Of a stretch of 64,000 nucleotides of DNA, positions 15,789-52,583 are shown one piece after another. The stretch comes from Wenjunlia vitaminophila DSM 41686 (GTDB lineage Bacteria; Actinomycetota; Actinomycetes; Streptomycetales; Streptomycetaceae), in contig NZ_KB904680.1 of assembly GCF_000380165.1 (NCBI RefSeq), positions 62,001 to 126,000 on the forward strand, read 5' to 3'. The position numbers and the translations under genes were made by a program. Within the stretch, counting starts at the first letter, position 1, and the number at the start of each line of letters is the position of its first letter. Under the pieces are notes generated by a model, which saw nothing but the letters and a program-made list of their open reading frames with translations, was not told the origin of the DNA and made no database searches.

Positions 15789-15837
15789 GGGTGGGACTCC
15801 CCGGAACCGTCAGTGCCCGCGTTCGGAACGAGGAAGG

Positions 15838-18024: not shown

Positions 18025-18041
18025 TCGTCTTCTCCTCGAGT

Positions 18042-18062: not shown

Positions 18063-18274
18063 CTCGTGATCAAGCTCCCCGGTGTCGTCGTACGGAGGAA
18101 GACACTGCGCCGACCGCGTCTGCTGCGGACGGTGTACTCCGCCGGGAGTACACGCCGGTCAGTCGGGCCGTGGCAGTCGGCCGTCCCCACGCATCGGGGG
18201 CACTGGGTGGGACCAGGCATACTTCTGGTTGCCAACAGGCCTTACTGCACGTTGTGTTGAACGGGGGAACTCGT

Positions 18275-34380: not shown

Positions 34381-34574
34381 GTTCCCTCCCTCATTCGTGC
34401 TGCGTGCTCTGCGGGTCCCCCACCTCACAGAGGGTGATCTCCGCAGGCTACGTCCCCTCTGCACATGGCGAGGCGCCTTTGGACATATTCCTCACGGGTA
34501 AAATCAGCCAACGTGTGTTGACGCATGCGCCGGCGCGCTGCCTCGCCACGGCGGCCCACGCCCGCCCCGGAGAC

Positions 34575-35333
34575 TCACTTCCCCAACCGCACCAGCACGC
34601 CCAGTCGCTGGAGCTCCCTGATGTGCTCGGCCGCCCTTCCGGGGGCCGTGCCGCCCCGCACCACGACCCCGGCTTCCAGGTTGCGCCGGGCGGCGGACTC
34701 GGTGAGGTTCGCGCTGCCCAGGTAGAGCACCTCCCGATCGGCGACCGCCAACTTCGCGTGTTGGCGGGCCCGGTAGGCCCGTGCGTGGGCGGCCCAGTGC
34801 CACAGGCGGGCACCCGGCACCGCGGCGAACGCGTCGGCGGGCTCCGGACCGGAGAGCAACCCCCGGGCTCCGTGAAGTGTCTCGACCACGATGTCCACCG
34901 CGACCCCTCTCGCCACGGCGTCGGTGAGGGCCCTGGTCAAGGTGGCGTAGGGACGAGCGGCGTAGGTCATGGCCAGCAGCTCGTCCCGTGCCTGGGCCAC
35001 CACCTCGACCAGCACGTGAGCGGTGGCCCTGACCGGGACTCGAGGCGTGGAAGGACCGCTCCACACGGTTCGGACCTCGACGGCATCCCGGCGCCGGGTC
35101 CAGGCAGCGGCATACCCGCGCAGGTAGGCAGCCGCCTCGGACGGGGACACCCCTTCGGCATCCATGGCCTGGTACAGCACGCCGACCGCGTCGCTTGCGG
35201 CGCCCTGGAGCACGACCAGCGCGTGGTCAGCGCCTCGTCCCCGAGCGAGGAGCCCCGCCAGGTCCTTGGTGCCAGTGGGCCCGAGCGCCGTGGCCGCACC
35301 GTGCGCCGCGGCCTCGAACCGCCGGCGGCTCAC
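34575..35333 (-). CDS. drmC: DISARM phospholipase D-like protein DrmC
   Basis: 252 aa, ATG overlapping the drmB stop (ATGA). It has a single PLD (HKD) motif RQHAKLAVADREVLYLGSAN followed by LTESAARRNLEAGVVV at about 190-220, the hallmark of DrmC. The N-terminal ~100 residues are helical. DrmC belongs to the core drmABC set of DISARM (Ofir et al. 2018), although it was reported there to be dispensable for protection. PLD-family nuclease activity would need two HKD motifs and therefore a dimer. Confidence 0.9.
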   Translation of the reverse strand: MSRRRFEAAAHGAATALGPTGTKDLAGLLARGRGADHALVVLQGAASDAVGVLYQAMDAEGVSPSEAAAYLRGYAAAWTRRRDAVEVRTVWSGPSTPRVPVRATAHVLVEVVAQARDELLAMTYAARPYATLTRALTDAVARGVAVDIVVETLHGARGLLSGPEPADAFAAVPGARLWHWAAHARAYRARQHAKLAVADREVLYLGSANLTESAARRNLEAGVVVRGGTAPGRAAEHIRELQRLGVLVRLGK

Positions 35334-37228
35334 GGCAGCAGACCGACGGGGGTCAGCACCGGCGCCGGGTCGTCACCGAGCGGGAGCAGGAAGCGTCGGT
35401 CGAGGAACCGGTTGCCCCGCTCGCACGTGGTTTCCGAGACGAAGAGGCAGACATGGCACGCCGCGCCGTGGAGGTAGTCGTCCGGGAAACATGGGAGACG
35501 CTCGGCGCACAGCGGGTCGGAGGAACAGTGCGCGGCGTCCCGAAGCGCTCTGCGCACGATCCGTTCGAAGTGCGGCGCCCTGGCGAGCGAGACCAGCCCG
35601 CCGAGGGTGCCCTCGGAGTCCGGTACGGCCGTGTAGAGGAGAATCCCCGTCCTGGGATCGTCGTCGTCACCGGCGTAGATCCGTTCCGCCAGACTCGCCG
35701 AGTTGTAGCCGCACTCCAGGGCGATGGTGCGGATGAGCAGGTGGGAGAGGGTGTGCAGGGCGAAGTAGCGCTCACCCGGCCAGCCGTACATGGGGTCGAA
35801 CGGAGTGGTGAGCCGGTCGGACCTGCGCTTGTCCCGGAAACGGGCGAACGCCTCACGGTGCGCCGTCATCTGCGGCGATGACCGGACGTCGGCCACCCAT
35901 TCGGCCATCCGGCCGGGGTGCACCCGCAGGAAGATCCCTTCGCCTCGCACCTCACTGGCCGGGACCCAGGAGGGGGCGGAACGGCTGAGCCGCACCGGGG
36001 TGGCGATCCCCTCGGACTCCCGGTCGGGCGCGTCGAGCCGGGTGAACCCGATCAGCGCCCGGGCCTCTCGCAGCCGCTCGACCTGTCGGACGTCGGAGAA
36101 GAGCCCTCCCAGCGCGTCGGGCACCGTCACCGGGGCGAGAGCGAAGTCATCACTCGGTTCGGCCGGTGGCGGCCCGGACAGCACGTCCCATTCCGGACCG
36201 AGCAGATCCGACTGGGTCGCGGTGTCGCTCACCGTCTCGGCACCGCCTCCGTTCCTGCGCGCCTCGATGGCGGCGAGCACGGCAGCCGGGTCGTACTCCC
36301 GGAGGTAGCCGTACCCGGGAAGAGTGGCGAGGAACTGGTACATCTCCACCGAGTTGACGTTCTCCAGCGCCGGCCACTGGTCGTCCAGGAGCTTGCTGAT
36401 GGAGGCGCCCCGCGCCGGTGGCAACGCGAGCGCACTGAGCGTCATCGGGAACCAGTGGTTGGACGCTCCGGCGACCATCAGGGTGGCTTCCTCGTCGCAG
36501 CCGCGCTCCGCGTACGTCCCGAGATGGGGGTGCCGCCCCCGGCATGCGGGCAGTTGCTCCTGCCCGTCGGCCCCCATCGCCTCGCGGATGTTGCGCCTCG
36601 CCCCGCAGGCGACGCACTCCAGAGTCACGTTGGCCGCCTGGTTGCCGCCGTGGTCCAGCATCCGAAGTCGGGGCCTGGAGGTTCCGCAGTCCCGGCCGCG
36701 GTGAACGAACTGGACGTACGGGAACTCGTCGAGGTGGCCGCGGGTGCAGACCAGGGTGAAACGCGCCGCGACGGCGAGGGGTTTCTTCGCCTTGCAGTCG
36801 TGGACGAACTTCGCCTCGTGCGGGGCCCTGGGGTTGTTGTTGACGAAGGCGAACACCCCGGAGTCGATGGCGGCGAGCTCGTAGCACGCGGTGCACCGCA
36901 TCCACTGGGGGAACGGAGTGACGGGAACTCCGGTTCCCTGAGCGGACTGCTCCTTGGGTGAGTTGTCCGCCCCCTCCATCCAGGGCGCCGCCCGCAGCTC
37001 GGTGATCTGGTCCTGGCCGTACAGTTGCAGGGCGCGATTGACCGCGTGCCTCAGCCGTGGCTCGTCGATGACGTAGTCGGCGAGTCCGCTGAAGTTCCAC
37101 GTCTCCAGGCCCTTGACCAGGACGGAGAAGTGAGGCAGGTCGATCAGTGCGCCGACGCCCGCGGTGAACATCAGGTGACTGGGGCGAACGGTCCCCACGC
37201 GGCGGAAGTACCCGGTCGTGCTGGTCAT
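35330..37228 (-). CDS. drmB: DISARM protein DrmB (DUF1998)
   Basis: 632 aa from ATG 37228, which overlaps the drmA stop by 4 bp; the 35 residues upstream are shadow sequence. The N-terminus GYFRRVGTVRPSHLMFTAGV is typical of DrmB. Cys pairs near residue 110 (MRCTACYEL), around 210 (LECVACGARRNIRE) and at the end suggest zinc sites. The DUF1998 core lies at about 485-632: ERYFALHTLSHLLIRTIALE, LAERIYAG, then CSSDPLCAERLPC and LHGAACHVCLFVSETTCERG. DrmB pairs with the DrmA helicase in the core complex that loads on phage DNA. Confidence 0.93.
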   Translation of the reverse strand: MTSTTGYFRRVGTVRPSHLMFTAGVGALIDLPHFSVLVKGLETWNFSGLADYVIDEPRLRHAVNRALQLYGQDQITELRAAPWMEGADNSPKEQSAQGTGVPVTPFPQWMRCTACYELAAIDSGVFAFVNNNPRAPHEAKFVHDCKAKKPLAVAARFTLVCTRGHLDEFPYVQFVHRGRDCGTSRPRLRMLDHGGNQAANVTLECVACGARRNIREAMGADGQEQLPACRGRHPHLGTYAERGCDEEATLMVAGASNHWFPMTLSALALPPARGASISKLLDDQWPALENVNSVEMYQFLATLPGYGYLREYDPAAVLAAIEARRNGGGAETVSDTATQSDLLGPEWDVLSGPPPAEPSDDFALAPVTVPDALGGLFSDVRQVERLREARALIGFTRLDAPDRESEGIATPVRLSRSAPSWVPASEVRGEGIFLRVHPGRMAEWVADVRSSPQMTAHREAFARFRDKRRSDRLTTPFDPMYGWPGERYFALHTLSHLLIRTIALECGYNSASLAERIYAGDDDDPRTGILLYTAVPDSEGTLGGLVSLARAPHFERIVRRALRDAAHCSSDPLCAERLPCFPDDYLHGAACHVCLFVSETTCERGNRFLDRRFLLPLGDDPAPVLTPVGLLP

Positions 37229-40200
37229 CGCTTGGCCCTCCTGGATGCCGGGGCAGCGGTCGGACCGTACTCGTCGGCGTCCACCGTCACGTCCGAGTCG
37301 CCGGGCTTCTCGCGCGCGGGGCCGAAACGCCACGGCGGCCCGGTGCTTGTGGCCGGATCGACGAAGTCACCCCCGCCCGAAAACAGCAGGTTGATCTCGT
37401 TCTCCGTCTCCCGCATGGACATCGGCACGGTCAGCTCGGTCCACCGTGTTCCGTCGGCCCTGTGTAGCAGCCCCCGGACGTTGGTGTCCTTCTTCTTCTC
37501 CTTGCGGTAGCCGGTCAGGGCCGTTCCCGACCGCGCGTCGAGCCACTTCTCCCGTAAGGTGTCGAGACGTTCCGCGAGGTACTCGCGGGCGTTGGGGTCA
37601 CCGGCGCGATCCGCACGCTCCAGCAGGCGCCGCCGGACGTCGGTGGCGGCCTCCCCGTCGAGGTCCACGTCGTGGGCGTCGGTGTTGCGGGAGTGCTGGT
37701 ACTCGGACTGGCGCAGGGCCGCGACGAAGGTGGCGGCGGTGCCGCGGTCCAGGGACCGGCGGGTGAACGGCGTCACCGACAACGCCTCGACCTGTCGGTA
37801 GAACGTGGCGTGGTAGTGCGTGAAGTCCTCGAAGTGCGCGAGGTCGCGGGGGCGTGACCAGTTGTACAGGGTGACGACCAGTCCGGGGCGTCGGGGGTCC
37901 CTTCCGACCCGTGAGGACGCCTGGATGTACTCGGCCGTGTTCTTCGGCTGGCCGACCACGAGCATCAGGCCGAACCGGGAGACGTCGATCCCGACCTGGA
38001 GCATCGACGTGGCCAGCACCACGTCCACGGCCTGCTTCTCCGACGCGGTCAGCCGTACCCTGGGCTCCCGTTTGTCCTTCTTGGCGGCGGCGTACTCACG
38101 CAGCAGCGCCCGCCGTCGCACCGAGGTGTCCCGTTGCTGGTCGAAACCCACCTCGAGGCGTTTGAGCGTGGCACCGATGTCGGCCGAGGAGACGCGGGAG
38201 GTGAGTTCCTGGATGGTGAGCATGCCGGACGCGCTGACGAGGCGGTCGGCGATCGGGTGCCGCCCCCGGCGACTGCCGTTGGAGCGGACCCGGGTGGTGA
38301 TGTCGTCGTCCAGGTAACGCCGCATGCCGGCGAGTTCGCGGGTGGCGTTGAAGTAGCCGACGAGGGTCATGTACGGGTCCGCGGGCGCTCCGTGGTCGTC
38401 GAAGAGCTGTTGGGCGCCGAGGAGCAGGATCTCGGCCACGCGGATCTCGGCGGCCTTCAGCCGCGTCCCGTGGGCGCACACCCCCAGGTACCGCCGCCCT
38501 GGGTGGCTTCTGCTGAGTCCGACCTGACGGGAGAAGAACGTGTCTCCCGCGTCGAGTACCTGCGGGGGGAAGATGGCCACCTTCCGTCCGAAGACGCCGC
38601 GCACCTGGGCAGCGGCACGCTTGGTGGTGGCCGTGGAGGCCACGATCTTGGGGCCGACCTCATGACGCACGCCGTCGGCGTCGTGGAAGGACCAGGTGCA
38701 CAGCTGGTCCACGGCGGCCTCGAAGAGCCCCACGGTGGTGCCGAGCGCCCCCGATATCAGGTGCAACTCGTCCTGGATGATCAGGTCCGGTGGTCGCAGC
38801 CTGGTCACCCGCTGGGAGACAACCGCGGGCCACTCGTCCCCCTTGGCGACGTGTCTGCCACGGCACTTGGTCTCCGCGTCGAGGTCGTCGTGTCGGTACC
38901 CGTGCCGCTCGCACCACTCGGTGACCCGTCCGAACAACAGCCCGCTGTAGCCGTTCCACGGGAGCTGGGCGAACTTGTCCACGGTGGCGATGAGCATCGT
39001 GGGGGCGAGCCGGTAGATCTCCTCGTCCACGGTGAGCACCGGGATGCCCTCGTTGCGCGCGCTGCGCCGGGAGAAGGGACAGCGCCCTACGCCGGTGATC
39101 TCGGAGCTCTTCTCCCCCTCACCGCGCGGGCAGTACAGCAGTATCCGGCGCTGGATCTCGTCGGCTTCCATGTTCCGTCGGGCGGTCAGCTCGGTACCGC
39201 ACCAGGGGCAGGTGAGCACCTGGAGCACCCTGGCGTACTTGTCGCTGGCGCTCTCCCTGGCATCTGCTATCTGCTCCCGGGCCTCGCCGAACCAGTTGGG
39301 TGACACGGAGGTGCCCACCCACATCCCGATCCGGAACGGGGTGGTTCCCCACCGGGTGTCTCCCTGCCCCACGTGTTCCCTGCGCAGCACCTCACAGGCG
39401 CTGACGAGTGCCGCCGCGCGCTGGAACTGCTGGGCGGTGAGCAGCCTCAGGGTGTAGCGCATGATGACGGCCACTCCCGCCTCACCACTGCGGGCCTCGG
39501 TATCCGTACCGATCACTCCCTGGAGGCGGCGCACGGCGAACGTGTAGGCCGCGAGCCCCAGGTACGCCTCGGTCTTGCCGCCACCGGTCGGGAAGAACAG
39601 CAGATCGACCACCGCATCCCGGCCGCTGCCGCGGTGCCGGTGGCCGGGACGGGAGAGGGAGTCCAGGTTGAGCAGGATGAAGGCGAGCTGGAAGGGCCAC
39701 CAGGTCGCGCCTTCCTTGCCCCTGCCGTACACCGCGGCGTGGGCGGCGCGGTAGGAGGCGGGATCGTGCGCGTGCCTGCCCCGCGCCTGGGCGATGGCGG
39801 TGTTGCGACGTTGTAGGGCCATGGCGCGGTTGGCGAAGCGGAACGCCTCGAGCGCCGTGTCGTCCCCGCGGAGCAGGGCGATGCCCGCGGCGATCCGCTC
39901 GGCCACCTCCTCGGCCTGCTCCACGGCGGCGGTGGCCGCGGGGGCGAGGTGGCCGGGGAGTGCGCCGGCCCGCTCCCGTTCCTGCTCCAGCCAGACCTGG
40001 TAGCCGTCGGCGAGTGGGGCGAGCGCGGTGGCCAGTTCCTCGCGGCGCTCCGGCACGGCCAGGGCCGCGAGCTCGTCCATTCCGAGTTCGAGTCCGGCGA
40101 GCAGACCCTGTTCCCGTGCCGTCGGTGCGGTGGTGGCCGGCACGTCGTACTCGGGCAGCCAGGTGGTGGTCAGGCGGTGCGCCCGACGCTCGCCGTTCCG

Positions 40201-41088
40201 CACGTGGGCGCGTACCGCGACGTTGCGTCCCATGGCGTGCTTGAGGTGGTCCCGGTAGAGCAGGCGCAGTCGGCGTTCCTCCGGGTCGTCGGGCCCGCTG
40301 TTCGCGGCGCCGGGGTCGAGCGGGTCGTCGATCGGCAGGAAGACGGCGGCCTGGTCGTCGGGGAAGGCGGTGACCTCGAGCTCGGTCTGGAACAGCCAGT
40401 TGGTGTCCCTGCGCCCCTGCGCCTCCGCCAGCTTGTTGACGAGGGCGACCTCGACGACCCTGACGTCCTCGCCGTGCGCGGTGCCGGCCCGCTGTCGCAC
40501 CCGGATGTCCAGGCACACCGCGGTGTCGGCGCTGTCCCCCTCCAGCAGCCGCCGCGTGCTGTGCTCGGTGGTGACGGTGACGTCCTCCTGGTGTTCCACC
40601 GGCTCCCGGACCCACGCCGCCGGTCCTTCTCCGGCCGCTCCGCCCGAGGGACCGACGGTGTAACGCCCCCAGCGCGCGGTGACGGTGAGCGTGCCCACGG
40701 ACGCCGGGACCGCGAAGGACAGTCCCATGGAGGACGCCCACATCCGTCCGGCGGCCTGCGGCGTCAGCAACTCGGGCAGCCCGGGGTCGCTCTGCTCCCC
40801 GTCGCAGCCGCCGTCCGTGTCGCCGGACTGCGCCGCGACCCTGGCAATCATCGCCTGGGTCGTCCCCGAGACCGGCTGTGGACCGAGCATGCCCACCAGG
40901 TACCGGTCGCGGGGACCGGTGGAGTGCTGCGGGAGTGTCTCCCGCTCCCCGTCCCACGGGCCGAGCAGGTCACGCCGGATGTAGTCGCCCAGCTTGTCTC
41001 GCACGTCGTACGAGTCGGCGGGCTGGAACGTCTGCGGAACCTCGTCCAGCGGGTGCGGCACCGACACCGGGGCGGTCTTGGGGGACAT
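37225..41088 (-). CDS. drmA: DISARM helicase DrmA
   Basis: 1287 aa from ATG 41088 (MSPKTAPVSVPHPLDEVPQT); the longer open frame to 41712 overlaps the divergent ATPase gene and is not used. The SF2 helicase core has Walker A LLFFPTGGGKTEAYLGLAAY at about 500, a DELH-type box PPDLIIQDELHLISGALG at about 770, and the late motifs DVSRFGLMLVVGQPKNTAEY and ASSRVGRDPRRPGLVVTLYN at about 1040-1065. The N-terminal half is a DrmA-specific region. A CPWCGTELTARRN zinc pair lies near residue 630. It is the first gene of the drmABC unit, with stop/start overlaps into drmB and drmC. Confidence 0.94.
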   Translation of the reverse strand: MSPKTAPVSVPHPLDEVPQTFQPADSYDVRDKLGDYIRRDLLGPWDGERETLPQHSTGPRDRYLVGMLGPQPVSGTTQAMIARVAAQSGDTDGGCDGEQSDPGLPELLTPQAAGRMWASSMGLSFAVPASVGTLTVTARWGRYTVGPSGGAAGEGPAAWVREPVEHQEDVTVTTEHSTRRLLEGDSADTAVCLDIRVRQRAGTAHGEDVRVVEVALVNKLAEAQGRRDTNWLFQTELEVTAFPDDQAAVFLPIDDPLDPGAANSGPDDPEERRLRLLYRDHLKHAMGRNVAVRAHVRNGERRAHRLTTTWLPEYDVPATTAPTAREQGLLAGLELGMDELAALAVPERREELATALAPLADGYQVWLEQERERAGALPGHLAPAATAAVEQAEEVAERIAAGIALLRGDDTALEAFRFANRAMALQRRNTAIAQARGRHAHDPASYRAAHAAVYGRGKEGATWWPFQLAFILLNLDSLSRPGHRHRGSGRDAVVDLLFFPTGGGKTEAYLGLAAYTFAVRRLQGVIGTDTEARSGEAGVAVIMRYTLRLLTAQQFQRAAALVSACEVLRREHVGQGDTRWGTTPFRIGMWVGTSVSPNWFGEAREQIADARESASDKYARVLQVLTCPWCGTELTARRNMEADEIQRRILLYCPRGEGEKSSEITGVGRCPFSRRSARNEGIPVLTVDEEIYRLAPTMLIATVDKFAQLPWNGYSGLLFGRVTEWCERHGYRHDDLDAETKCRGRHVAKGDEWPAVVSQRVTRLRPPDLIIQDELHLISGALGTTVGLFEAAVDQLCTWSFHDADGVRHEVGPKIVASTATTKRAAAQVRGVFGRKVAIFPPQVLDAGDTFFSRQVGLSRSHPGRRYLGVCAHGTRLKAAEIRVAEILLLGAQQLFDDHGAPADPYMTLVGYFNATRELAGMRRYLDDDITTRVRSNGSRRGRHPIADRLVSASGMLTIQELTSRVSSADIGATLKRLEVGFDQQRDTSVRRRALLREYAAAKKDKREPRVRLTASEKQAVDVVLATSMLQVGIDVSRFGLMLVVGQPKNTAEYIQASSRVGRDPRRPGLVVTLYNWSRPRDLAHFEDFTHYHATFYRQVEALSVTPFTRRSLDRGTAATFVAALRQSEYQHSRNTDAHDVDLDGEAATDVRRRLLERADRAGDPNAREYLAERLDTLREKWLDARSGTALTGYRKEKKKDTNVRGLLHRADGTRWTELTVPMSMRETENEINLLFSGGGDFVDPATSTGPPWRFGPAREKPGDSDVTVDADEYGPTAAPASRRAKR

Positions 41089-41181
41089 CGATACGAGGGC
41101 CCTTCTTCGCTTGGGGGGCGGTTCCCTGGCAAAACACGAGGAACTGACGGCAGGTCCATGAAGCACGCAGAGCGCAAGCCG

Positions 41182-41204
41182 TTGACTCAGTTCACAATAC
41201 ATGA
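41182..41204 (+). promoter_or_regulatory. TTGACT-GTTCAC box between drmA and the AAA ATPase
   Basis: TTGACT (41182-41187), two bases, then GTTCAC (41190-41195) and AATACATGAG. The same layout occurs before the kinase at 55115-55128 (minus strand) and, with two changes, at 58926-58939. It lies in the divergent gap, so it could serve either gene. TTGACT fits a -35 box but no good -10 follows at 17-18 bases. Confidence 0.35.
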
Positions 41205-41344
41205 GGTGACGAACTGCCATCATCGAACCGTGATTCTCGCGATGAAAAGTGGCACCGGGCGCCGCCGCACTGTCGGCGCCCCACGACGGGCGGGCGGCGA
41301 TACTCCTCCCCACCGTGACCAGCGTGCTGAGGTAGCTTGTCGAT

Positions 41345-42664
41345 GTGACTGCACAGGCCATCGAAGAGGTACGCCTGACCGCGTTCAAGAGCTTCCGCGG
41401 TGAGACACTCAGGCTTGCCCCGTTGACCGTGCTGATCGGCCGCAACAGCGGCGGCAAGTCCAACGCCCTCGACGGCCTTGAGGTGCTGTCCCGGCTGGCC
41501 AGCGGCGAGGACATCACCGACGCCCTGGAGAGCCGGCACAGCGCGGCCGGCCCGGTGCGCGGCGGCCTCGCCGGCTGCGTCCCCCACGGAACCGACAGTT
41601 TCACTCTGGGGTGCAGCGTCACAGGGGAACAAGGCCCCATCCACCTCGACGTGACGGTCACCCTCGAACCGGATGTGCGAATCGTCGCGGAACGCCTCGA
41701 GGGTCCGACCAAGAGCGGCCCCCGTCCCCTCCTGAAGAGCTACGACCCGGACCCACACCTCGGCGACATCCACGCCGCCTGGCACAACGGCAAACCGGGG
41801 CGCAACCCCAGCGGGCCGTTCCGTGGCTCCCGACTCCTCACCGCCCAACTGCCGTCACGCATCGAGGGCCGCACCCGCGGCGAACGCGACACCCTGCACG
41901 CGGCGGAAGCCATGCTGTCCGCCCTGTCCAGCGTCTTCCACCTCGACCCGGTCCCGCACCTGATGCGCCAGTACGTCCCCTCCCGTGACACCCAGATCCG
42001 CAGGACCGCGGAGAACCTCTCCGCGGCCATCGGCAACATCGAACGCAGGGACCCCGCGCTCTTCCGGCGGCTGGTAACCCTGCTGCGCGGCCTCGCCGAC
42101 CACCAGATCGAAACCCTCACGGTCACCCGCTCCGACCTCGGCGACGTCATGCTGGGGCTCGACGAGGGCGAGCAGGGGCTGACCCCCGCCCGGGAGATGA
42201 GTGACGGGATGCTCCGCTTCCTCGCCATCACCACGTCACTGCTCACCGGCAGCCGAGGACTCGACCTCGGCCCCGGGAAACGCCCCCTGTCCGCCCCGTC
42301 CGACCAGGCGCTGATGCTCGTCATCGAGGAACTGGAGAACGGCCTGCACCCGTCCCAGGCCTCCGAGGTGCTCCACCTCGTCCGGCAGGCCAGCGAGGAG
42401 AACGGCACCCAGGTGCTGATCACGACCCACAGCCCGGCGCTGCTCTCCGCCCTGTCCCGCGAGGACCACGAAGGCGTCGTGGTCTGCCACCGGGACCGCG
42501 ACTCCGGGACCAGCCGCCTGACCAGGCTCACCGAACTGGACGGGTACCCGGTGGCCATGGCCAGCGGTCCCCTGGGCGACGTCGTCACCCAGGGGCGCCT
42601 GGAAAGAACCGAACCCGACCAGCGGGACTTCTCCGACTTCGACCGGCTCCTCGGGATCGGGTGA
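41345..42664 (+). CDS. AAA-family (SMC/ABC-like) ATPase of a two-gene cassette
   Basis: 439 aa, GTG 41345. RLTAFKSFRGETLRLAPLTV and LIGRNSGGKSNALDGLEVLS give the N-terminal Walker A (about residues 35-42) of an OLD/AAA_21-type ATPase. The C-terminal half has a signature-like REMSDGMLRFLAI, Walker B LMLVIEELENGLHPSQ and the His switch VLITTHSPALLSAL. Such ATPases act as switches for a linked effector in OLD, Gabija, Septu or PARIS-like systems. Here no TOPRIM domain is fused; the next gene, 3 bp downstream, is a PIN-like protein, the likely effector. It points away from drmA. Confidence 0.88.
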   Translation: MTAQAIEEVRLTAFKSFRGETLRLAPLTVLIGRNSGGKSNALDGLEVLSRLASGEDITDALESRHSAAGPVRGGLAGCVPHGTDSFTLGCSVTGEQGPIHLDVTVTLEPDVRIVAERLEGPTKSGPRPLLKSYDPDPHLGDIHAAWHNGKPGRNPSGPFRGSRLLTAQLPSRIEGRTRGERDTLHAAEAMLSALSSVFHLDPVPHLMRQYVPSRDTQIRRTAENLSAAIGNIERRDPALFRRLVTLLRGLADHQIETLTVTRSDLGDVMLGLDEGEQGLTPAREMSDGMLRFLAITTSLLTGSRGLDLGPGKRPLSAPSDQALMLVIEELENGLHPSQASEVLHLVRQASEENGTQVLITTHSPALLSALSREDHEGVVVCHRDRDSGTSRLTRLTELDGYPVAMASGPLGDVVTQGRLERTEPDQRDFSDFDRLLGIG

Positions 42665-42667
42665 CCC

Positions 42668-43141
42668 GTGGCGCGCGGAGTGGAGTTCGTGGACACCTCG
42701 ATCCTCTGCAACCTGCTGGGCATCCCCGGCAAGTGCCAGGACCGGGACACCGTCGTCGCCGACCTCAAACGCAAACGCGAGGCTCGCGACCGCGACCTGC
42801 TGTTACCGGTGACCGCCGTCATCGAGACCGGCAACCACATCGCCCAGATATCCGACGGCCACCACCGCAGGACCTGCGCCGAACGCTTCGCGAACCTGCT
42901 CACCATGGTCGTGGAGGGCAAGGCGCCCTGGGCGCTGAATGAGGTGGAGTGGGACGCCGCCCACCTCACCACCCTGATCCGCGGCGGCAACTCGGGCAGC
43001 ACCCTGGTGGAACACGCCTGCAACCGGCTCGGCTGCGGCGACCTGAACATCCTGATCGAACGGGACCGCTACCTGGCCCGCACCTCGGGGGTGACCGCCA
43101 CCGTGTGGACCCTCGACGAACTGCTGAGCGCCTACGCCTGA
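42668..43141 (+). CDS. PIN-like nuclease, partner of the AAA ATPase
   Basis: 157 aa, GTG 42668, three bases after the ATPase stop. The pattern of acidic residues fits a PIN nuclease: VEFVDTSILCNLLG (Asp9), PVTAVIETGNHIA (Glu near 59), then a C-terminal GCGDLNILIERDRY (Asp near 125). The near-contact with the ATPase gene indicates a working pair: ATPase sensor plus RNA- or tRNA-cutting effector is the natural reading, but the substrate is unknown. Confidence 0.7.
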   Translation: MARGVEFVDTSILCNLLGIPGKCQDRDTVVADLKRKREARDRDLLLPVTAVIETGNHIAQISDGHHRRTCAERFANLLTMVVEGKAPWALNEVEWDAAHLTTLIRGGNSGSTLVEHACNRLGCGDLNILIERDRYLARTSGVTATVWTLDELLSAYA

Positions 43142-43853: not shown

Positions 43854-44693
43854 ATGACTACTACTACCACCACCGGTCCACGAAAACGGGACAAGGACGA
43901 CGATCGCCCCGGCATCTGGGTCGGCTACGGCAAACTCGTCAAGCTGTTCCGCGAGAAGGCCGGCCTGACCCAACAACAGCTCGCACAGGCCCTGGGCTAC
44001 TCCGTGGAGCTGGTCGCCTCCGTCGAGCAGGGCCGCCGCCCCGCGAAGGCCGCGTTCACCGCCCGCGCGGAGGAGGTGCTGGAGGCCGGCGGGGCACTGC
44101 GGGTGTTGCAGGAGAACGTGGACCTGGCCAAGTTGCCCGAGTTTTTCCGCGACTTCGCCATCATCGAGGCGGAGGCCGTGAGCCGCTGCTCATACGATCC
44201 GCTGCTCGTCCCCGGCCTGCTCCAGACGGAGGAGTACGCGCGGGCACTCTTCTCAGGACACTGCCCACCGTTGGACGATGAGGTCATCGAACAACACGTG
44301 GAGGCGAGGCTGGCGAGGCAACGGCTCCTGACGCGGACGCCGTTGGTGGATTTGTCCTTCGTAGTTGGGGAGGCCGCGCTACTCAACCCGGTGGGCGGAC
44401 CCATGACCATGCGCGGTCAGTTACAACAGTTGCTGAGCCTAGGAGCCTACCGAAATATCACCATCCAGGTCATGCCACTCACTCCCGGCTTCCACCCCGG
44501 ACTCAATGGGCCGATGGTCCTCCTGGAAACGCCAGAGCACCGGCGAGTCGGCTACATCGAGTCCCAGGAGGTCGGTGTGGTGATCACTGACCAAACTAGT
44601 GTCAGCGCGTTTGATCAGCGATACGGCAAACTGCGATCTCAGTCTTTGAACGTCGAAGAATCAGCGCAGCTCATCCAACGCATTGGAGAATAG
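43854..44693 (+). CDS. XRE-family Scr1-type regulator
   Basis: 279 aa from ATG 43854, with GGGGGTG 7 bases upstream (an in-frame GTG at 43839 is inside that site). The N-terminal helix-turn-helix KLVKLFREKAGLTQQQLAQA plus LGYSVELVASVEQGRRPA is followed by the Scr1 C-terminal domain (DUF5753): CSYDPLLVPGLLQTEEYARA, then VVGEAALLNPVGGPMTMRGQ and ITIQVMPLTPGFHPGLNGPM. It forms the regulatory, antitoxin-like half of a pair with DUF397, two bases downstream. The 3' half drops in GC and contains a rare TTA leucine codon at 44421. Confidence 0.93.
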   Translation: MTTTTTTGPRKRDKDDDRPGIWVGYGKLVKLFREKAGLTQQQLAQALGYSVELVASVEQGRRPAKAAFTARAEEVLEAGGALRVLQENVDLAKLPEFFRDFAIIEAEAVSRCSYDPLLVPGLLQTEEYARALFSGHCPPLDDEVIEQHVEARLARQRLLTRTPLVDLSFVVGEAALLNPVGGPMTMRGQLQQLLSLGAYRNITIQVMPLTPGFHPGLNGPMVLLETPEHRRVGYIESQEVGVVITDQTSVSAFDQRYGKLRSQSLNVEESAQLIQRIGE

Positions 44694-44695
44694 TA

Positions 44696-44911
44696 ATGGC
44701 TCAATCAACAGGTAGGATCGCCCCGCTGTCATGGCGTAAGAGCAGTTACAGTGGGTCAGGCGGCGGAGACTGTATCGAGATAGCCTGCGCAGAAGACACT
44801 GTCCACGTACGAGACTCGAAGGACCCAGAAGGACCGATGCTCACGTTCTCTTCAACACAGTGGTTGACTTTCATTTCGTTTTCCACCACCTTGCCAAATT
44901 CCGACACGTGA
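44696..44911 (+). CDS. DUF397 protein
   Basis: 71 aa. PLSWRKSSYSGSGGGDCIEI, VHVRDSKDPEGPMLTFSSTQ and WLTFIS are the DUF397 core. The family normally ends in a short KxGxFD-like tail; here it ends FSTTLPNSDT, so the last ~10 residues look altered. It follows the Scr1-type regulator by two bases and is thought in this family to act as its small partner. Confidence 0.88.
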   Translation: MAQSTGRIAPLSWRKSSYSGSGGGDCIEIACAEDTVHVRDSKDPEGPMLTFSSTQWLTFISFSTTLPNSDT

Positions 44912-44930
44912 CAGCACGTATTCGCAAAGA

Positions 44931-44968
44931 ACTTCACGCCGCAAACCCGCAAAAAGGCGGCGTGAAGT
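44931..44968. terminator. Hairpin after DUF397
   Basis: ACTTCACGCCGC (44931-44942) pairs perfectly with GCGGCGTGAAGT (44957-44968) over a 14-base loop. It separates DUF397 from the convergent drmMI gene. Confidence 0.6.
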
Positions 44969-44992
44969 CGCAAACCAACGAAACTAAACCGA

Positions 44993-47900
44993 CTAGAAGA
45001 GCACATTGCCAGGCGGAAAGAGCCCGTCGGCAAAATCGCCACCAGGGGCCGCAGACTCGCGGCCCCTTTTCTCGTGGACCTTCTGACGGCGCGCCTCAGC
45101 GGAAGGCGAGGGCATACCGGGATGCTTTTTAATCTTCTTATGCAAGCCGAGAAATACCTCGTCAGCGTACGCTTGATGGTTAAGCTGTCGGAGGCGGTCG
45201 ATTATCTCCGTCCGCGCCATTAAGCCAATGGTGTGACGTGGGCCTTGGTCAGTTTCATGGAATCCATGATCCAGCATACATGCATCGCAAGTTGAGTGAA
45301 TCCCTAGCGCAGACCCAACATCACCAAGCAGATCATGCCAGCCATAAGCAGCAACAGTCGCCCGATCAACTTCCTCATGCAAGCGGCGAAGCTCTACTAT
45401 TTCACTGACTTCACAAAGCGGATCATGGAACAAGTTATAGGTTTCAGTGAGACCGATATTCTTAGCCAGCATCACCTGGCGACGATGAGCATCGAGACGA
45501 GTGCCCGCGACCCGGAGTTCCTCAGTTAGCGGTGGGCGAATTAGCGTTTCAAACACATCGCTTGGCGTATAACGCACTCGCGTTTCAAGGGTCGAGGAAC
45601 GATCAATTACCCACCAATAGTGAACGGCGCTACTCAGAAATGCGAGCATAGACGGGTCGTTCGTAGCAAATACACATAGCTGCTCACTGAAAACTTGACC
45701 AGTCTCAACCATAACGGGTAGGGCCACCTTACTCACCCTTGCCATCACGACACACTGCCGAAGAGGCTCGAGTGCTCGGATTAGGGCGGGGCGCTTTTCC
45801 GCATATTGCCACCAGTAATCACGATAGATTTTTCGATTATTCCCTTCCCGCTCCGGCTTGACGAGGTCAGCAACCTGTCCGTAGGCCCTTGAATACTCTC
45901 GAGCCCGAGCTTCCGGCCAGTCATGAAAGTCGATGACCCAGCGATCCGAGCCATGTTCAGGATGATTGTTAATATCCTGCCCATTGAGATAAGGGAATAA
46001 CACATCTGCATATTTCGGGTCTTCGTCAATCCACGAACGCGCCGTCTCCTCGGGAACTGTGAACCCCAGTCCGAGAACATACGAGCCAATGAAAGCCAGT
46101 CCGCGATTCCTCACCAGCGGCTCCGCCCACGACGCCTCCCGCGAAACCGGATTGAGCGACGTAGAAATCCCCCGCGGCACCGGCAGCCTCCCCAGCACCG
46201 TCACCGCGTTCTCCCCCAGCGGCGCCCGGCTGGTCCACACCGCGCAGTACTCCAGCATCGCCGAACGCGACGGCCACGGCGCGCTCTTCACCGCGCGGCG
46301 GATGGTGACCCCCGCCGCCTCGAGCTGGTCCAGTCCTACCTCTCGGGTGTCGCCCTGAGCCAGGGTGTTCGTGGCGATGAGGCCGCCCTGCCCGCTCGCG
46401 TTGAGCAGTTCGTGCACCCGTAGTTCGAAGTACGCCACCAGGTCGGCGCTGCCCCGTTTGCCGTCGGCGAGGAAGTCCACCAGGTACTCGCGGTACGCCT
46501 CCCCCATCGCGCCCGTCAGTTTCTGCCCGCCGAGGAACGGTGGGTTTCCCACCACCGCGTCGAAGCCGTCATGTCCGTCCGTGAACACCTCGGGGAACAC
46601 CAGGGGCCAGTGCACGGGAACCCGTTCCATGCCCCCGTCGGGAAGTTCGCTCGCCAGCCACCGCTTCGCTGTGGCGCGGGCGTCGCGCAGCAGCTCCGAG
46701 TCGTCGCTGACTTCCTGCGCCACCATGCCGGCGACGATCTGGCCCGCCAGGGGGAACAGGTCGCGGAGTCGTTCCCCGCCGTCCCTGTCGTACCACGGCA
46801 CCCTTCCTGAGGCACAGGTTGCCAGGCCAGCGCCGACGAGCAGGTCCCCGACGAGGCGCAACCGGGCGGAGTGTTCGTTGACCTCGGCGAGTAAAGCGCG
46901 CTTCCGTTCCAGCGCGGGGAGATCGACACCCTTGACCGCGGTGATGGCGAGCCGTTCCCGGGTCAGTTCGTCCACACGCCTGCGGGCCGCCGTCGCGAAC
47001 ACGTCGTCCTGGTCAACGGGCTTGAGGTGGAGGCCTTCCAACTGCCGCATGCTGGAGATGCCGAGCAGCGAGTCACCGGCCACCAGCCGGTCGTCGAGGA
47101 AGGTGAACGGTCGCTTGGGGTCCATGGAGATCAGCCACAGGGAGAGTTTGGCCATCTCCACGGCCATGGGGTTGATGTCCGCGCCGTACAGGCAGTGTTC
47201 GATGACCTGGCGGCGGGCCTCGATGACGACGGGGTCCTGTTCGGCGTCGGCCGCGGTCACCGCGTCCACGGCGTGGCCCTCGCGGAAGGCGATGGCATCG
47301 ACGCGTTCGCCGTCCGCCGCCCAGGCCTCGATCAGCCGTTCGGCGAGGTAGCGGCAGGCGGCGACGAGGAAGGCGCCCGAACCCATGGCGATGTCGGCGA
47401 CCTTGAGGGCCAGGATGTCGTCCGCTGACTTCAGCCGCCAGGTGCTCCGGTCCGCGGTCTGGAGCGGTCCGTGGTCGTACACCAGGGGTTCGAGGGTGTG
47501 GAGGACCACTTCCTCCGCGAGGTGGCGGGGGGTGTAGTGGGTACCTGTGTTCTTCCGGAGGGTGGACGTGCCGACGTACATGGAGCCGCTGCGGATGACG
47601 GCGGGCAGTCCTCGCAGGTCGTGGCGGATGAGGCCGAAGAAGGGGAGCAGCCGCTCGGTCAGCCGCGGGTCTCGGGTGGCCGACCCCAGCAGGCGTTCCG
47701 CCTCGGCTAGGGCCTCTCCCTCCAGCGGGGTGAGGAGTTTCTCCAGCTTGTTGGCGGAGGCGGGGGGCTTGGGGTCCTTCCAGGTGTCGTGGATCCTCTT
47801 GGCGAGGTCCTTGACCGTGCGGGACGTGGCCGCCAGTGACTCGAGCGTGCGCAGGGGGACCTTGTGCTCCAGGCCGGCGGGGCCGATCAGGGTGACCATG

Positions 47901-49303
47901 TCCTCGATGGCGCGCTCGCCGTCGTAGGAGAGCAGGCCCTCGTAGACGTAGCCGATCTGTTCGACGTCCAGGGCGCGGAAGCTCAGCGTCCTGACCTCCC
48001 GGCTCCGGCCGCTGCCGACCTCCACTTCCTGGACGGCGCGGAGCATGTGCAGCACGGTGCGGTCGTCGATGGGCAGGAGCGGGGTGGTGTTCTCCAGCCA
48101 CGGGTACAGGGTGGGGTCGAAGATGGAGCCGTCGTAGGCGGGCAGGTGCAGCTCGGGGTGGCGTACCCCGCCCCGCACGGCGTGGAACAGGGCGATCAGC
48201 CGGTGCCAGGCGGTGGTGGTGTGGTCCAGGGCTCCCTCGCCCTCGGCGTCGGCGCGGGACCGGAGTTCGTCGCGGAGGTGGCGGGCGGAGTACGACGTGG
48301 CATAGACCTCGTTGTCGGCGGGGAGCAGGCCGCGTTCCTCGGCGCAGAGCAGGAACACCAGGCGCATCATCACCGCCACCGCGGCGCGGTAGACCTCGTT
48401 CGCGGTCACTCCTGAGGCGCGCAGGCCGACCGCGCCGTGTTCCATGGCGCGGGCGTCGGCCCGGCCGATGGCGTCCACCAGCAGTTCCACGGCCTGGCGG
48501 ACCTGGACGCCGAGGGCGTCGGTGACGTCCTCGCCTGCCTCCACGCTCTGTTTCAGCAGGCCGACGAGTGTGTCGGCCTCGTCGTACTCGAAGAAGCGGC
48601 GGCGGGACAGCAGGGAGCGGAAGGCTCGGACGACGGTGCGTTCGGACGCCTCGTTCCAGCCGATGGCGTCGAAGAGGGCCGTGGTGGTGACGCCGCCGAC
48701 AGGGGCCCAGACCAGGCACCACCAGCGGCCGTCGGTGACCAGTCCGAGGGGGACGCCATGGTGGCGCAGCAGCCGGGACAGCCGGTCGGCGGGGCTGGCC
48801 GACCAGGTGTCGCTGGTGGTCCGGGCGGTGGGCACGGTTCCGGCGGGAACGGTCATGCCCAGCAGGCGGACGCGTTTGGCGGCGCTGGCCGTGTCGGGTT
48901 CCGTGGTGAGGTCCGCGTCGGGTTCGGTCAGCGCGAAGTCCACCCGGAGCTGGACGTCGTGGTCGCCGACGTCGATGGTGAACCGGTCGAGAACGTCGTC
49001 GTGGCCGGGGCGCCGGGCGAGGGCGTCGTTCCATTCGAGCAGGGACCCGAGGACGTAGGAGATCCAGGCATCGCGCTGGGACCGGGGGTCGGCTTGCCAG
49101 TCCGCGTGGCGGAGGCGGAGGCGGGCGCGTTCGTCCCTGTCCAGTGCGTCGAGCTGCGGCCAGGTCCGGCGCAGCACCGGCATGGTGAGGAAGGGACCGG
49201 AGACCTCGGTGAGGTCGAGCCACTCCTGGTGCTGGGCGCGGCTGTCGAGGGCCTTGGCCCTGGCGGCGGCGTGGCCGGGCGACACGGCGGGGCGGCGGCT
49301 CAT
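44993..49303 (-). CDS. drmMI: DISARM adenine methylase DrmMI (Eco57I-like)
   Basis: 1436 aa from ATG 49303, which overlaps the drmD stop (ATGA); the longer frame to 49978 lies inside drmD. The methylase core has motif I DIAMGSGAFLVAACRYLA at about 638 and motif IV VVGNPPFLGGQKL at about 918, as in Eco57I-type N6-adenine methylases; the N-terminal ~550 residues are the helical arm of the family. The C-terminal ~370 residues form the target-recognition region. Class 1 DISARM uses this enzyme to mark host DNA. The last third (below about 46.1 kb) has clearly lower GC and rare TTA codons at 46000 and 45223, unlike the rest of the gene, suggesting an exchanged recognition domain. Confidence 0.92.
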   Translation of the reverse strand: MSRRPAVSPGHAAARAKALDSRAQHQEWLDLTEVSGPFLTMPVLRRTWPQLDALDRDERARLRLRHADWQADPRSQRDAWISYVLGSLLEWNDALARRPGHDDVLDRFTIDVGDHDVQLRVDFALTEPDADLTTEPDTASAAKRVRLLGMTVPAGTVPTARTTSDTWSASPADRLSRLLRHHGVPLGLVTDGRWWCLVWAPVGGVTTTALFDAIGWNEASERTVVRAFRSLLSRRRFFEYDEADTLVGLLKQSVEAGEDVTDALGVQVRQAVELLVDAIGRADARAMEHGAVGLRASGVTANEVYRAAVAVMMRLVFLLCAEERGLLPADNEVYATSYSARHLRDELRSRADAEGEGALDHTTTAWHRLIALFHAVRGGVRHPELHLPAYDGSIFDPTLYPWLENTTPLLPIDDRTVLHMLRAVQEVEVGSGRSREVRTLSFRALDVEQIGYVYEGLLSYDGERAIEDMVTLIGPAGLEHKVPLRTLESLAATSRTVKDLAKRIHDTWKDPKPPASANKLEKLLTPLEGEALAEAERLLGSATRDPRLTERLLPFFGLIRHDLRGLPAVIRSGSMYVGTSTLRKNTGTHYTPRHLAEEVVLHTLEPLVYDHGPLQTADRSTWRLKSADDILALKVADIAMGSGAFLVAACRYLAERLIEAWAADGERVDAIAFREGHAVDAVTAADAEQDPVVIEARRQVIEHCLYGADINPMAVEMAKLSLWLISMDPKRPFTFLDDRLVAGDSLLGISSMRQLEGLHLKPVDQDDVFATAARRRVDELTRERLAITAVKGVDLPALERKRALLAEVNEHSARLRLVGDLLVGAGLATCASGRVPWYDRDGGERLRDLFPLAGQIVAGMVAQEVSDDSELLRDARATAKRWLASELPDGGMERVPVHWPLVFPEVFTDGHDGFDAVVGNPPFLGGQKLTGAMGEAYREYLVDFLADGKRGSADLVAYFELRVHELLNASGQGGLIATNTLAQGDTREVGLDQLEAAGVTIRRAVKSAPWPSRSAMLEYCAVWTSRAPLGENAVTVLGRLPVPRGISTSLNPVSREASWAEPLVRNRGLAFIGSYVLGLGFTVPEETARSWIDEDPKYADVLFPYLNGQDINNHPEHGSDRWVIDFHDWPEARAREYSRAYGQVADLVKPEREGNNRKIYRDYWWQYAEKRPALIRALEPLRQCVVMARVSKVALPVMVETGQVFSEQLCVFATNDPSMLAFLSSAVHYWWVIDRSSTLETRVRYTPSDVFETLIRPPLTEELRVAGTRLDAHRRQVMLAKNIGLTETYNLFHDPLCEVSEIVELRRLHEEVDRATVAAYGWHDLLGDVGSALGIHSTCDACMLDHGFHETDQGPRHTIGLMARTEIIDRLRQLNHQAYADEVFLGLHKKIKKHPGMPSPSAEARRQKVHEKRGRESAAPGGDFADGLFPPGNVLF
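45045..45070 (+). terminator. Canonical hairpin with T-tract inside the drmMI 3' end
   Basis: GGGGCCGC (45045-45052) and GCGGCCCC (45059-45066) with TTTT following. On the plus strand this is a classical intrinsic terminator for the DUF397 transcript, although it lies inside the last ~25 codons of the convergent drmMI. Confidence 0.55.
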
Positions 49304-52300
49304 CGGCGGGCTTCCTTCGCGGGGATCACAAAGACGACGGCGACGGGGAAGAGATGGGAGCGGGGGTCCATGTAGCGCGTGGCGATGGCGGCGAGTTCCC
49401 GGGTCCGCTCGGCGGGCAGGCCGGCGATGCGAGCCCGCCAGCGTTCCCGGTCCTCGCGGTACTGGCGCTGTTCCGCGCTGCTCAGTTCGCGTTCGGCGAA
49501 GAGCGCGATCTGTTCGTTGGCCGCGTCGCCTTCCTCCTTGAGCTTGGCGCGCAGTGTGGCCTCGAACCGGTCGAGTGTCGCCTGGATGCGGTGTTCCTCC
49601 TCGGCGCGCCGCTCGCCGAGTTCGCGTTCCAGGGTGGCGCGGCGTTCCCGGGCCCGGGCCGCCAGCGAGTCGTACAGCGGCCGTTGGAGTTTGGGCCAGG
49701 TGGCGGTGAGGTCCTGGCGCAGGTGGGGGGCTGCCTCGGTGCCTTCGGTAAGGGCATGGGCGAGGACCTGCCCCTGGGACCGTACGGACTCCCAGCGGCG
49801 GAAGCGTCCGGTGTCGCCGAACCAGCCACCGGCGTAGAGGATCTCCTCGTGCAGGCGGGTTCCGTCGGAGCCGACGAGGACGTAGCGCGCGTAGGCGGAG
49901 ACCAGGGTGGTGGTGACGGTGGGGTCGTCGGTGACCACGGCGGTGACGCGGTGCAGGCCGACGGTGTCGGCGTTCCACACGGCGGCGGTCAGCAGGCGGG
50001 TGGAGAGCGCGACGAGTGGGTGTTTCAGGTGGGCGAGGACGACGTCGTCGCGGCCCTCCGCCGCCGTGCGGGGGTCGAAGGTGACAGGGCGTCGCACGTC
50101 GGGGCGGAGCTTGTGGGCCAGCCCGGCGGTGGCGCGCTCCCAGGTTCCTGACAGCGTCGGCACCTCGTACAGCCCGCCGTCGTGGTCCTCGTGGTGGTAC
50201 GGGGTGAGGGGCCGCTGGTTGTCCAGGGCGAGGGCGGTGTCAACGACGCGCTTGACCGTGGTCGGGGTCAGGTTGAGGGCGGTCACGGTGTCGTCGTACT
50301 GGTCGGCGAGACGGCGTGCCTGGGCAGTGACGTTCTGCTCGGGGGCGACCTCGCCGCCGGTCCTACGGCCCCTGATCTGCCGGGTTCTGGCGTTCTCGAT
50401 GTCGATGGGGGTGTGATCGCCGGTCATGCGACGTTGGACTGCGTCGGCGATGACGGCGTTGACCGCGCCGAGGTCCGCCTCCATCCTGGCGACCTTGCGC
50501 GCGACCCGGGACAGGAACTCCAGGTCCGCCTCGTAGGAGCCGGGCGGGGCCTGCTGCCAGCCGGCCCCGATGAAGTGGGTGATCTCGGGGTCCGCCCGCT
50601 GTCCCCAGCGGTCGATCCGGCCGATGCGCTGTTCGAGCTTGTTGGGGTTGAAGGGGATGTCGTAGTTGATCAGCCGGTGGCAGTGGTTCTGGAGGTCGAT
50701 GCCCTCACCGGCAGCGTCCGTGGCGAGCAGGATGCGGACCCGTCCCTCAGCGGAGTCCGGGTGTGCCTGGAAGCCGAGGCGGATGGTTTCGCGTTCCTCG
50801 GAGCTGAGGCCGCCGTGCAGCACGGCGACCCGACCGTCATCGGTGAGCTTCTCCTGGCGCAGCAGGTCGAGCAGCCACCGCTGGGTGTCACGGTACTCGG
50901 TGAACACGACCACGCGCTCGTTGGTCCAGTGCTGGTCCGGGCAGCAGATGGCGCGCAGGGCACCGATCAGCACGTCGGCCTTGGAGTCTGCTGTGGCCTC
51001 GTGGGTCAGTGCCCAGCGTTCCATCTCCGTCAACAGCCGCAGTTCCTCACCGTCCTCGTGTGGGGTGAGGGTGGTGGCCCGGGTCAGCGCGTCGTCCTCG
51101 GCGTCGGCAAGGCCGAGGTCGTCGAGGTCGGCGGCCAGTTCGGGGAAGTCCTCGAGCCATTCCGGGACCTCGGTGGCGGCGGTCCTGGGGCGTCCGTCGG
51201 TGTCCTCCACGTGCGAGAGGTAGACCCGAACGGTGTGTAGGAAGGCAGCCGGGGATGAGAACAGGCGCTTCTTCAACAGCAGGGTGACCAGGTCAGCGGC
51301 GCGGCGTCCGCCGCGTGCCCTCGCGGCGATCCTCCTCTTGCGCAGGTCGGCGAAGCTGCTGAGCAGGCCGTGGATCTCGCGCTCGGCCGGGGTGTATTCG
51401 ACGTCGAGCACCCTGGACGTCCGGGTGCGGAACCGGGGAGTGCCGTCCTTGTTGGTGACGTTTGCCTTGAGCCGGCGTACGACGGTGTCGGCCAGTGCCT
51501 GCTCGTCGGGGTCAACACCCCGGGCGAACCGCTGGTTGTCGATGAGCTCGAGGAGCGCCGTGTAGGACTCGGGGTAGCCGTTGTGCGGGGTGGCGGAGAG
51601 GAACAGTCGGTGTTCGAAGTGGGGAACGAGCCGCCGGATCAGCTTGGTCTGCTGGGAGTCCACGGCGTAGACCTGCTTGGGTGCCGCGGGCGCCACGTGG
51701 TGTGCCTCGTCGAGGACGAGGAGGTCGAAGAACCTGCGCGTCGCCGTCGGGCCGGCCCCGGGGTCGTCGGGTGTCGCGGCGTCGGCGGGGACGACCTCGT
51801 CGAGCAGCCGCTGCGCCTTGGCGCCGCGCAGCCAGGGCAGGGAGACAATGGTCAAGGGGTGGACGCGGAACGGGTTCGCCGCGGTGCCGTGGGTGCGGCG
51901 GAGCCGGGCGCAGCGCTCGGAGTCAATGATGGTGAACTCAAGGCCGAACTTCTCGGCGAGTTCGTCGCGCCACTTCAGGGTCAACCCCGCGGGACACACG
52001 ACCATCACGCGCCGGGCCCGGGCGCGCAGTAACAGCTCCTGTATGACGAGTCCGGCCTCGACGGTCTTGCCGAGGCCGACGTCGTCGGCGAGGAGGAGGT
52101 TGACGCGTGGTGCGCCTACCGCGCGGGCGACCGGTTCGAGTTGGTAGGGCTCGATGGCCACCCCCGAGCGGAACGGGGACTGGAGCGTCTTGACGTCTGC
52201 GGAGGCCACCGCGGACCAGCGCACGGCGTCGAGGAAGGCGGCGAGGCGGGCTGGGGGATCGAAGCGACCGGTGGAGGCGTCGGGGAGGGAGCCCGCGGGC

Positions 52301-52533
52301 AGCACCCGACGGCCCGGCTCCACCTCCCAGATGACGCTGAGGGTGTCCCCGAAGTAGCCGTCGGCGACGGACTGGAGGTGCACCAGGGTCGCCGCTGGCG
52401 CGTCCGACGGCGACGGGGCGGGATCGACGGCCGTCACAACCCAGCTCTGGCCGCGGACCTCGACCAGGCTGCCCTCCTCGGGGAGCGGTTCCCGAGGAGG
52501 GCGGCTGGTGCCACGCTGGTCTGTCGCTGTCAT
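49300..52533 (-). CDS. drmD: DISARM SNF2-like helicase DrmD
   Basis: 1077 aa from ATG 52533 (MTATDQRGTSRPP). SNF2-type SF2 core: LLLADDVGLGKTVEAGLVIQ at about 150, LLVLDEAHHVAPAAPKQ at about 273, LFLSATPHNGYPESY, and the C-terminal RecA lobe with VVFTEYRDTQRWL and LEQRIGRIDRWGQ at about 636. The last ~300 residues are a long charged coiled coil (RARERRATLERELGERRAEE). drmD is the class 1-specific helicase of DISARM. Its stop overlaps the drmMI start, so the two are translated together. A stem-loop lies in its leader. Confidence 0.93.
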   Translation of the reverse strand: MTATDQRGTSRPPREPLPEEGSLVEVRGQSWVVTAVDPAPSPSDAPAATLVHLQSVADGYFGDTLSVIWEVEPGRRVLPAGSLPDASTGRFDPPARLAAFLDAVRWSAVASADVKTLQSPFRSGVAIEPYQLEPVARAVGAPRVNLLLADDVGLGKTVEAGLVIQELLLRARARRVMVVCPAGLTLKWRDELAEKFGLEFTIIDSERCARLRRTHGTAANPFRVHPLTIVSLPWLRGAKAQRLLDEVVPADAATPDDPGAGPTATRRFFDLLVLDEAHHVAPAAPKQVYAVDSQQTKLIRRLVPHFEHRLFLSATPHNGYPESYTALLELIDNQRFARGVDPDEQALADTVVRRLKANVTNKDGTPRFRTRTSRVLDVEYTPAEREIHGLLSSFADLRKRRIAARARGGRRAADLVTLLLKKRLFSSPAAFLHTVRVYLSHVEDTDGRPRTAATEVPEWLEDFPELAADLDDLGLADAEDDALTRATTLTPHEDGEELRLLTEMERWALTHEATADSKADVLIGALRAICCPDQHWTNERVVVFTEYRDTQRWLLDLLRQEKLTDDGRVAVLHGGLSSEERETIRLGFQAHPDSAEGRVRILLATDAAGEGIDLQNHCHRLINYDIPFNPNKLEQRIGRIDRWGQRADPEITHFIGAGWQQAPPGSYEADLEFLSRVARKVARMEADLGAVNAVIADAVQRRMTGDHTPIDIENARTRQIRGRRTGGEVAPEQNVTAQARRLADQYDDTVTALNLTPTTVKRVVDTALALDNQRPLTPYHHEDHDGGLYEVPTLSGTWERATAGLAHKLRPDVRRPVTFDPRTAAEGRDDVVLAHLKHPLVALSTRLLTAAVWNADTVGLHRVTAVVTDDPTVTTTLVSAYARYVLVGSDGTRLHEEILYAGGWFGDTGRFRRWESVRSQGQVLAHALTEGTEAAPHLRQDLTATWPKLQRPLYDSLAARARERRATLERELGERRAEEEHRIQATLDRFEATLRAKLKEEGDAANEQIALFAERELSSAEQRQYREDRERWRARIAGLPAERTRELAAIATRYMDPRSHLFPVAVVFVIPAKEARR

Positions 52534-52583
52534 GGCTGTCTGTGTTCCCCTCGGACAACGCCTGGTTCGAACAGGCAAGGATG

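Follow-up and report, generated by a model that had tools for sequence, protein, structure and literature searches.

DISARM needs self DNA to be marked so that it escapes self-attack. Its accounts in the literature (PMC9142583, PMC10273834) describe no exchangeable or invertible recognition end for the DrmMI methylase, and our literature search, which was thin on subscription papers, found no earlier report of an invertible or phase-variable DISARM methylase. Related behaviour is known from other systems. In MmeI the recognition domain comes after the methylase domain (PMC4833311), and the residues E806 and R808 read the last base pair, the E-R combination accepting only C and the K-D combination only G (PMC4833311; also PMC4081073). 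The BREX system of L. rhamnosus carries a full-length and a partial pglX gene beside a site-specific integrase (PMC7513527), and phase variation of pglX is mentioned elsewhere (PMC11842806). Finally, the hsdS invertons (PsrA, S. pneumoniae) combine inverted repeats, a silent end and a dedicated tyrosine recombinase with predicted motif switching.

The DrmMI loci analysed here resemble each of these systems in part. With the MmeI-family Type IIL enzymes they have in common the C-terminal fold (PDB ID 5hr4), the target recognition domain (TRD), the E/R specificity pair and a recognition that is diversified through residue pairs, whereas Pfam detects no N-terminal nuclease domain in DrmMI. Like BREX pglX, the invertible drmMI loci described below pair a full-length methylase with a partial copy and an integrase within an anti-phage system, although pglX belongs to another methylase family and another operon. 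They have all the listed attributes of the hsdS invertons as well, with the difference that hsdS encodes a separate Type I specificity subunit, whereas in DISARM the end in question belongs to the methylase chain itself, at its C-terminus.

The window (the whole 64-kb stretch of DNA analysed) contains a class 1 DISARM system, with drmD, drmMI, drmA and drmB identified by PADLOC in a single minus-strand locus at 35.3-52.6 kb (Table 1), so that core genes lie all around the tract considered here. drmMI shares its first 4 nt with the end of drmD, and its product, a DrmMI-family N6-adenine methylase, gives Pfam matches to Eco57I, MmeI_Mtase and MmeI_TRD. The Scr1-like and DUF397 genes sit between drmMI and drmA, both convergent to drmMI, with the stop codons of drmMI and DUF397 81 nt apart. 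The names that a first-pass annotation of this DNA had given to these genes (Scr1, DUF397, drmMI) agree with PADLOC for DrmMI and with Pfam for the other two (HTH/DUF5753 and DUF397).

Table 1. Coordinates of the DISARM genes, neighbouring genes and drmMI features in the window.
Feature	Position	Strand	Description
drmD	49300..52578	-	PADLOC E=0
drmMI	44993..49303	-	class 1 DISARM N6-adenine methylase, 1,436 aa, ATG start; PADLOC DrmMI E=0
GNPPF catalytic motif	46535..46549	-	residues 919-923
CCGCTGGTG	46112..46120	-	codons 1062-1064; homologue of CGNCTGGTA, the putative crossover core in the invertible relatives
Low-GC3 recognition end of drmMI	44993..46108	-	codons 1066-1436: TRD and C-terminal helices; GC3 step
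E1240-T1241-R1242	45578..45586	-	aligned with MmeI E806-S807-R808 (phmmer against 5hr4)
DUF397 gene	44696..44911	+	convergent to drmMI, within the tract; Pfam DUF397 E=3e-21
Scr1-like HTH/DUF5753 gene	43854..44693	+	Pfam; only the 3' end inside the tract
drmA	37225..41712	-	PADLOC E=8.5e-291
drmB	35330..37333	-	PADLOC E=2e-72
PLD-domain gene, probable drmC	34575..35333	-	Pfam PLDc_2 E=4.5e-14

Directly upstream of drmD is a gene for a protein kinase with TPR, PD-T4-6-like (52675-54069, minus strand), and downstream of the PLD gene a 2,020-aa double helicase is encoded, one part of it resembling DinG and another DpdF (28402-34464, minus strand). A 436-aa ORF without a Pfam or PADLOC match lies between the Scr1 gene and drmA (41740-43050, minus strand); it is probably a DISARM accessory gene, since an ORF 65% identical to it adjoins a drmA fragment in L050, a DrmMI locus used for comparison. 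In L050 an inverted block (13060-18176, minus strand) follows downstream of the first drmMI; it holds a second drmMI, 49% identical to that of the window, the homologue of the 436-aa ORF, and drmA cut down to its first 123 residues. By this gene order two DISARM operons meet in L050, one of them probably broken.

Maximum-likelihood change points on GC delimit a tract from 44,416 to 46,100 (log-likelihood gain 88), with a GC content of 0.700 before, 0.535 inside and 0.709 after it. At the 1.7-kb scale this is the GC minimum of the entire window (runner-up elsewhere 0.665, SD 0.026), a depth far outside chance expectation. The right edge is sharp: within drmMI, GC3 is 0.92 up to codon 1065 (support 1062-1067, log-likelihood gain 119) and about 0.52 beyond it, a step that corresponds to window position 46,108 (about 46,102-46,117). 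The left edge is fuzzy, being placed at 44,580 on total GC (support 44,339-44,627), and GC3 within Scr1 changes at about 44,586 (log-likelihood gain 8.4, support codons 127-247). Amino-acid composition can be rejected as an explanation for the low GC, the drop being equal at fourfold-degenerate sites.

Much of what the first-pass annotation had read from the letters is recovered by windowed GC and by change points on GC and GC3, namely a low-GC tract at about 44.4-46.1 kb with flanks near 70% (53.5% versus 70%), the sharp rebound near 46.1 kb in the middle of drmMI, seen here as the GC3 step, and the inclusion of the last 370 or so drmMI codons (371 of 1,436). Its value of 45-50% GC was too low, 400-bp windows giving about 51-56%, and the portion of Scr1 inside the tract is the 3' end as claimed but roughly the last third or less, not half.

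The GC3 step coincides with the start of an MmeI-like TRD. The structure predicted for DrmMI residues 900-1436 (pLDDT 87.8) has as its top PDB match in Foldseek the DNA-bound MmeI (5hr4; E=1.5e-18, TM 0.62), and Pfam places a weak MmeI_TRD match at residues 1082-1259. DrmMI possesses both the MmeI-like recognition domain and the gamma-class methylase domain by which the MmeI family is recognized. Its N-terminal half matched no nuclease family in Pfam at E<=0.001, including the PD-(D/E)XK type of Type IIL enzymes. It is other proteins of the DISARM system that are believed to attack DNA. In the alignment with MmeI, E1240 and R1242 of the window protein fall exactly opposite E806/R808, and because this pair matches the MmeI E/R code, the window DrmMI is predicted to read C as the last base, in an asymmetric motif ending in (m6A)C. 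For the Serratia DrmMI, whose motif is ACAC(mA)G (PMC9142583), the same code predicts a K/D pair.

Comparison with relatives, for which 80 actinobacterial DrmMI loci were retrieved, indicates that this end of the protein moves independently of the rest. The DrmMI closest to that of the window is only about 71% identical, but among the relatives themselves there are pairs 94-98% identical over residues 1-860 that are mostly 38-64% identical over residues 1080-1250. In most of the 22 near-identical pairs the divergent segment begins at residues 924-932, just past the NPPF motif, and its end varies from 1194 to 1363. Three Actinopolyspora proteins illustrate the pattern, being 98% identical before the recognition domain, 38-59% within it and 96% after it (1260-1385). 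FastTree phylogenies of residues 1-900 and 1066-1345 have only 4 of 33 splits in common, and the residue pair equivalent to E/R is itself variable across the relatives (K/D 53, E/R 13, R/D 4, G/G 4, G/T 2, P/V 1). Since near-identical DrmMI proteins carry unrelated recognition domains, since the trees are discordant, and since the step lies at the TRD start, it is strongly supported that the DrmMI recognition end is an exchangeable module and that exchange is family-wide. A conserved N-terminal part and a variable C-terminal part, as the first-pass annotation had expected of DrmMI homologues, are seen in this set; conservation of the full-length protein together with the same GC step, which had been named as the pattern that would speak against it, was not found, in that the step is common to the relatives and the conservation is not.

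A scan of all loci uncovered four with an inverted second recognition end, arranged tail to tail directly after drmMI: L016 (S. calidiresistens DSM 42108), L032 (S. physcomitrii LD120), L114 (genome G081) and L115 (genome G275). The two copies form inverted repeats of 245-350 bp that are 91-100% identical and map to window residues 1073-1191. Inversion in silico keeps the reading frame and yields a second full-length DrmMI at each locus (1381/1386, 1446/1438, 1442/1450 and 1387/1383 aa for the four loci), the alternative ends being 45-54% identical beyond the repeat, and it switches the specificity pair from K/D to E/R in L016 and from E/R to K/D in L114. Working and spare copies both contain CGNCTGGTA and diverge immediately after it. 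The flanks of L016 are swapped relative to those of L032, L114 and L115, again with divergence starting at CGNCTGGTA, as expected if L016 represents a locus caught in the opposite orientation, the comparison here being one between species. From these alignments CGNCTGGTA is likely the crossover core; it is homologous to window positions 46,112-46,120 (codon 1062), adjoining the GC3 step. The window itself contains no inverted TRD copy, hidden spare end or repeat.

Three further contigs from SID3212 and BV286 (L070, L071 and L073) break off within the homologue of the L032 inverted repeat, 99-244 nt into it; L070 and L071 come from a single assembly, as separate contigs with 10,551 nt of identical sequence. 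Assemblies often end inside repeats, and these three are likely further loci of the invertible kind.

Just past the spare copy, all four loci encode a tyrosine recombinase of about 280-287 aa. The four proteins are 69-89% identical to one another, and the two tested match Pfam Phage_integrase. The recombinase is absent from all other DrmMI loci examined (Fisher p=6e-7, a value to be read with the close relationship of L032 and L114 and the incompleteness of some loci in mind), and occurs in 2 of 395 family genomes, exactly those with an inverted copy. No relative of it was found in the window genome (G000), in 395 class-wide genomes (a search run without a positive control), or among phages and viruses. 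With a dedicated recombinase and inverted repeats around an alternative end, L016, L032, L114 and L115 are candidate invertons. It is quite probable on this gene organization that some streptomycetes have a phase-variable DISARM, in which the recombinase would invert the 3' end of drmMI and so switch the methylated motif and the self mark, and that the junction seen in the window is the same site. In the predicted motif switch the last base, for example, would be G or C, with (m6A)G expected at the motif end for K/D and (m6A)C for E/R.

For the window, the reading we prefer (at a probability of about 0.75) is that the tract marks an exchangeable DrmMI recognition cassette that was replaced by recombination in the window lineage. 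Conservation extends over the catalytic part (residues 1 to about 1062), whereas the TRD and tail from about residue 1065 would have been replaced by homologous recombination, probably as one tract that continues beyond the drmMI stop, spans DUF397 and reaches into the Scr1-like gene at its 3' end. This has to be weighed against the view, which we consider unlikely, that there was no recent event, and that the recognition domains of this family, by virtue of their descent from an old shared pool, are permanently GC-poor, the edge in the window being somewhat later. We compared GC3 over fixed regions, automatic three-segment change points having often taken weak upstream steps, and found it lower over residues 1066-1250 than over 1-880 in 79 of the 80 relatives (median 0.63 versus 0.91, with the same result at fourfold-degenerate sites). 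The window value of 0.52, the 6th lowest of 81, is low but not unique. Low GC in the recognition domain is therefore a family-wide property, and the step alone dates no single recent import. What this view fits poorly is the rest of the window tract. Over residues 930-1060 the window has a GC3 of 0.90, a region that is GC-poor in nearly all relatives and reaches at least 0.85 only in the window and L066, which makes the window junction later than usual; the edge is confined to about 5 codons; and the drmMI tail, DUF397 and the 3' end of Scr1 are GC-poorer than in most relatives, with 52% GC downstream of Scr1 as opposed to 56-69%. That the low GC extends this far is specific to the window and favours one replaced tract.

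That the tract instead joins two unrelated things, an exchanged drmMI end and a separately diverged, GC-poor 3' end of Scr1/DUF397, is similarly doubtful: GC3 declines gradually in Scr1 and its change point is weak and broad, as this explanation would have it, but GC stays low without a break from about 44.6 to 46.1 kb, the 81-nt intergenic gap included. Less probable still is that the window is a former inverton, its present end set by inversion near codon 1062, with later loss of a spare end and a recombinase from between drmMI and DUF397. The step at codon 1065 does adjoin the homologue of the core, GC is comparatively high ahead of the junction as at the inverton loci, and in L016 the order is spare end, recombinase and then DUF397-Scr1. 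However, neither a spare end nor a recombinase has left a remnant, with only 81 nt between the stop codons, inversion leaves the low GC within Scr1 unexplained, any kind of exchange would naturally have its junction at the TRD boundary, and the recognition domains of L016 and L032 cluster separately from that of the window.

In most close streptomycete relatives the Scr1/DUF397 pair is resident at this place and convergent to drmMI, which rules out import of the complete pair and makes recombination with a similarly organized donor the likely event. Against a replaced tract, the identity of the Scr1 protein to its relatives is no lower in the 3' end, and the left boundary is fuzzy. A DNA search of 395 family genomes and plasmids found no donor of the recognition end, the best identity over most of it being 65-66%. 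The only plasmid DNA match (window 45783-45862, 80 nt, 80% identical to MmeI-like DNA in Planktothrix agardhii) covers the conserved recognition-domain motif WWQYAEKRP. A cyanobacterial source was rejected, such recognition domains being no closer to that of the window than the N-terminal parts are (roughly 35-43% versus 30-41%), and carriage by phages or viruses is unsupported, with one phage match at 35% and ten distant viral matches. The first-pass annotation had explained the tract by a single import that swapped the recognition end of DrmMI. The exchangeable end is upheld by the near-identical backbones and discordant trees; the notion of one recent event is weakened by the GC-poor recognition domains of nearly all relatives and by the missing donor. 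We infer a single replacement event in the window and, for its DrmMI, a changed methylated site.

A new recognition end would lead to a different methylated sequence and thereby to a different self for DISARM. The most active form of this exchange may be that of the four relatives in which a tyrosine recombinase probably inverts a two-ended cassette at a core mapping to the window step. For these loci the MmeI residue code supplies concrete predictions of base changes. Exchange of recognition ends would also account for a GC dip that recurs at one spot of a GC-rich gene across the Actinobacteria. If swapping of recognition ends is routine, and a dedicated recombinase flips them in some strains, DISARM would diversify its self mark in the manner of Type I and BREX systems, and each lineage or subpopulation would present a different barrier to phages and plasmids.
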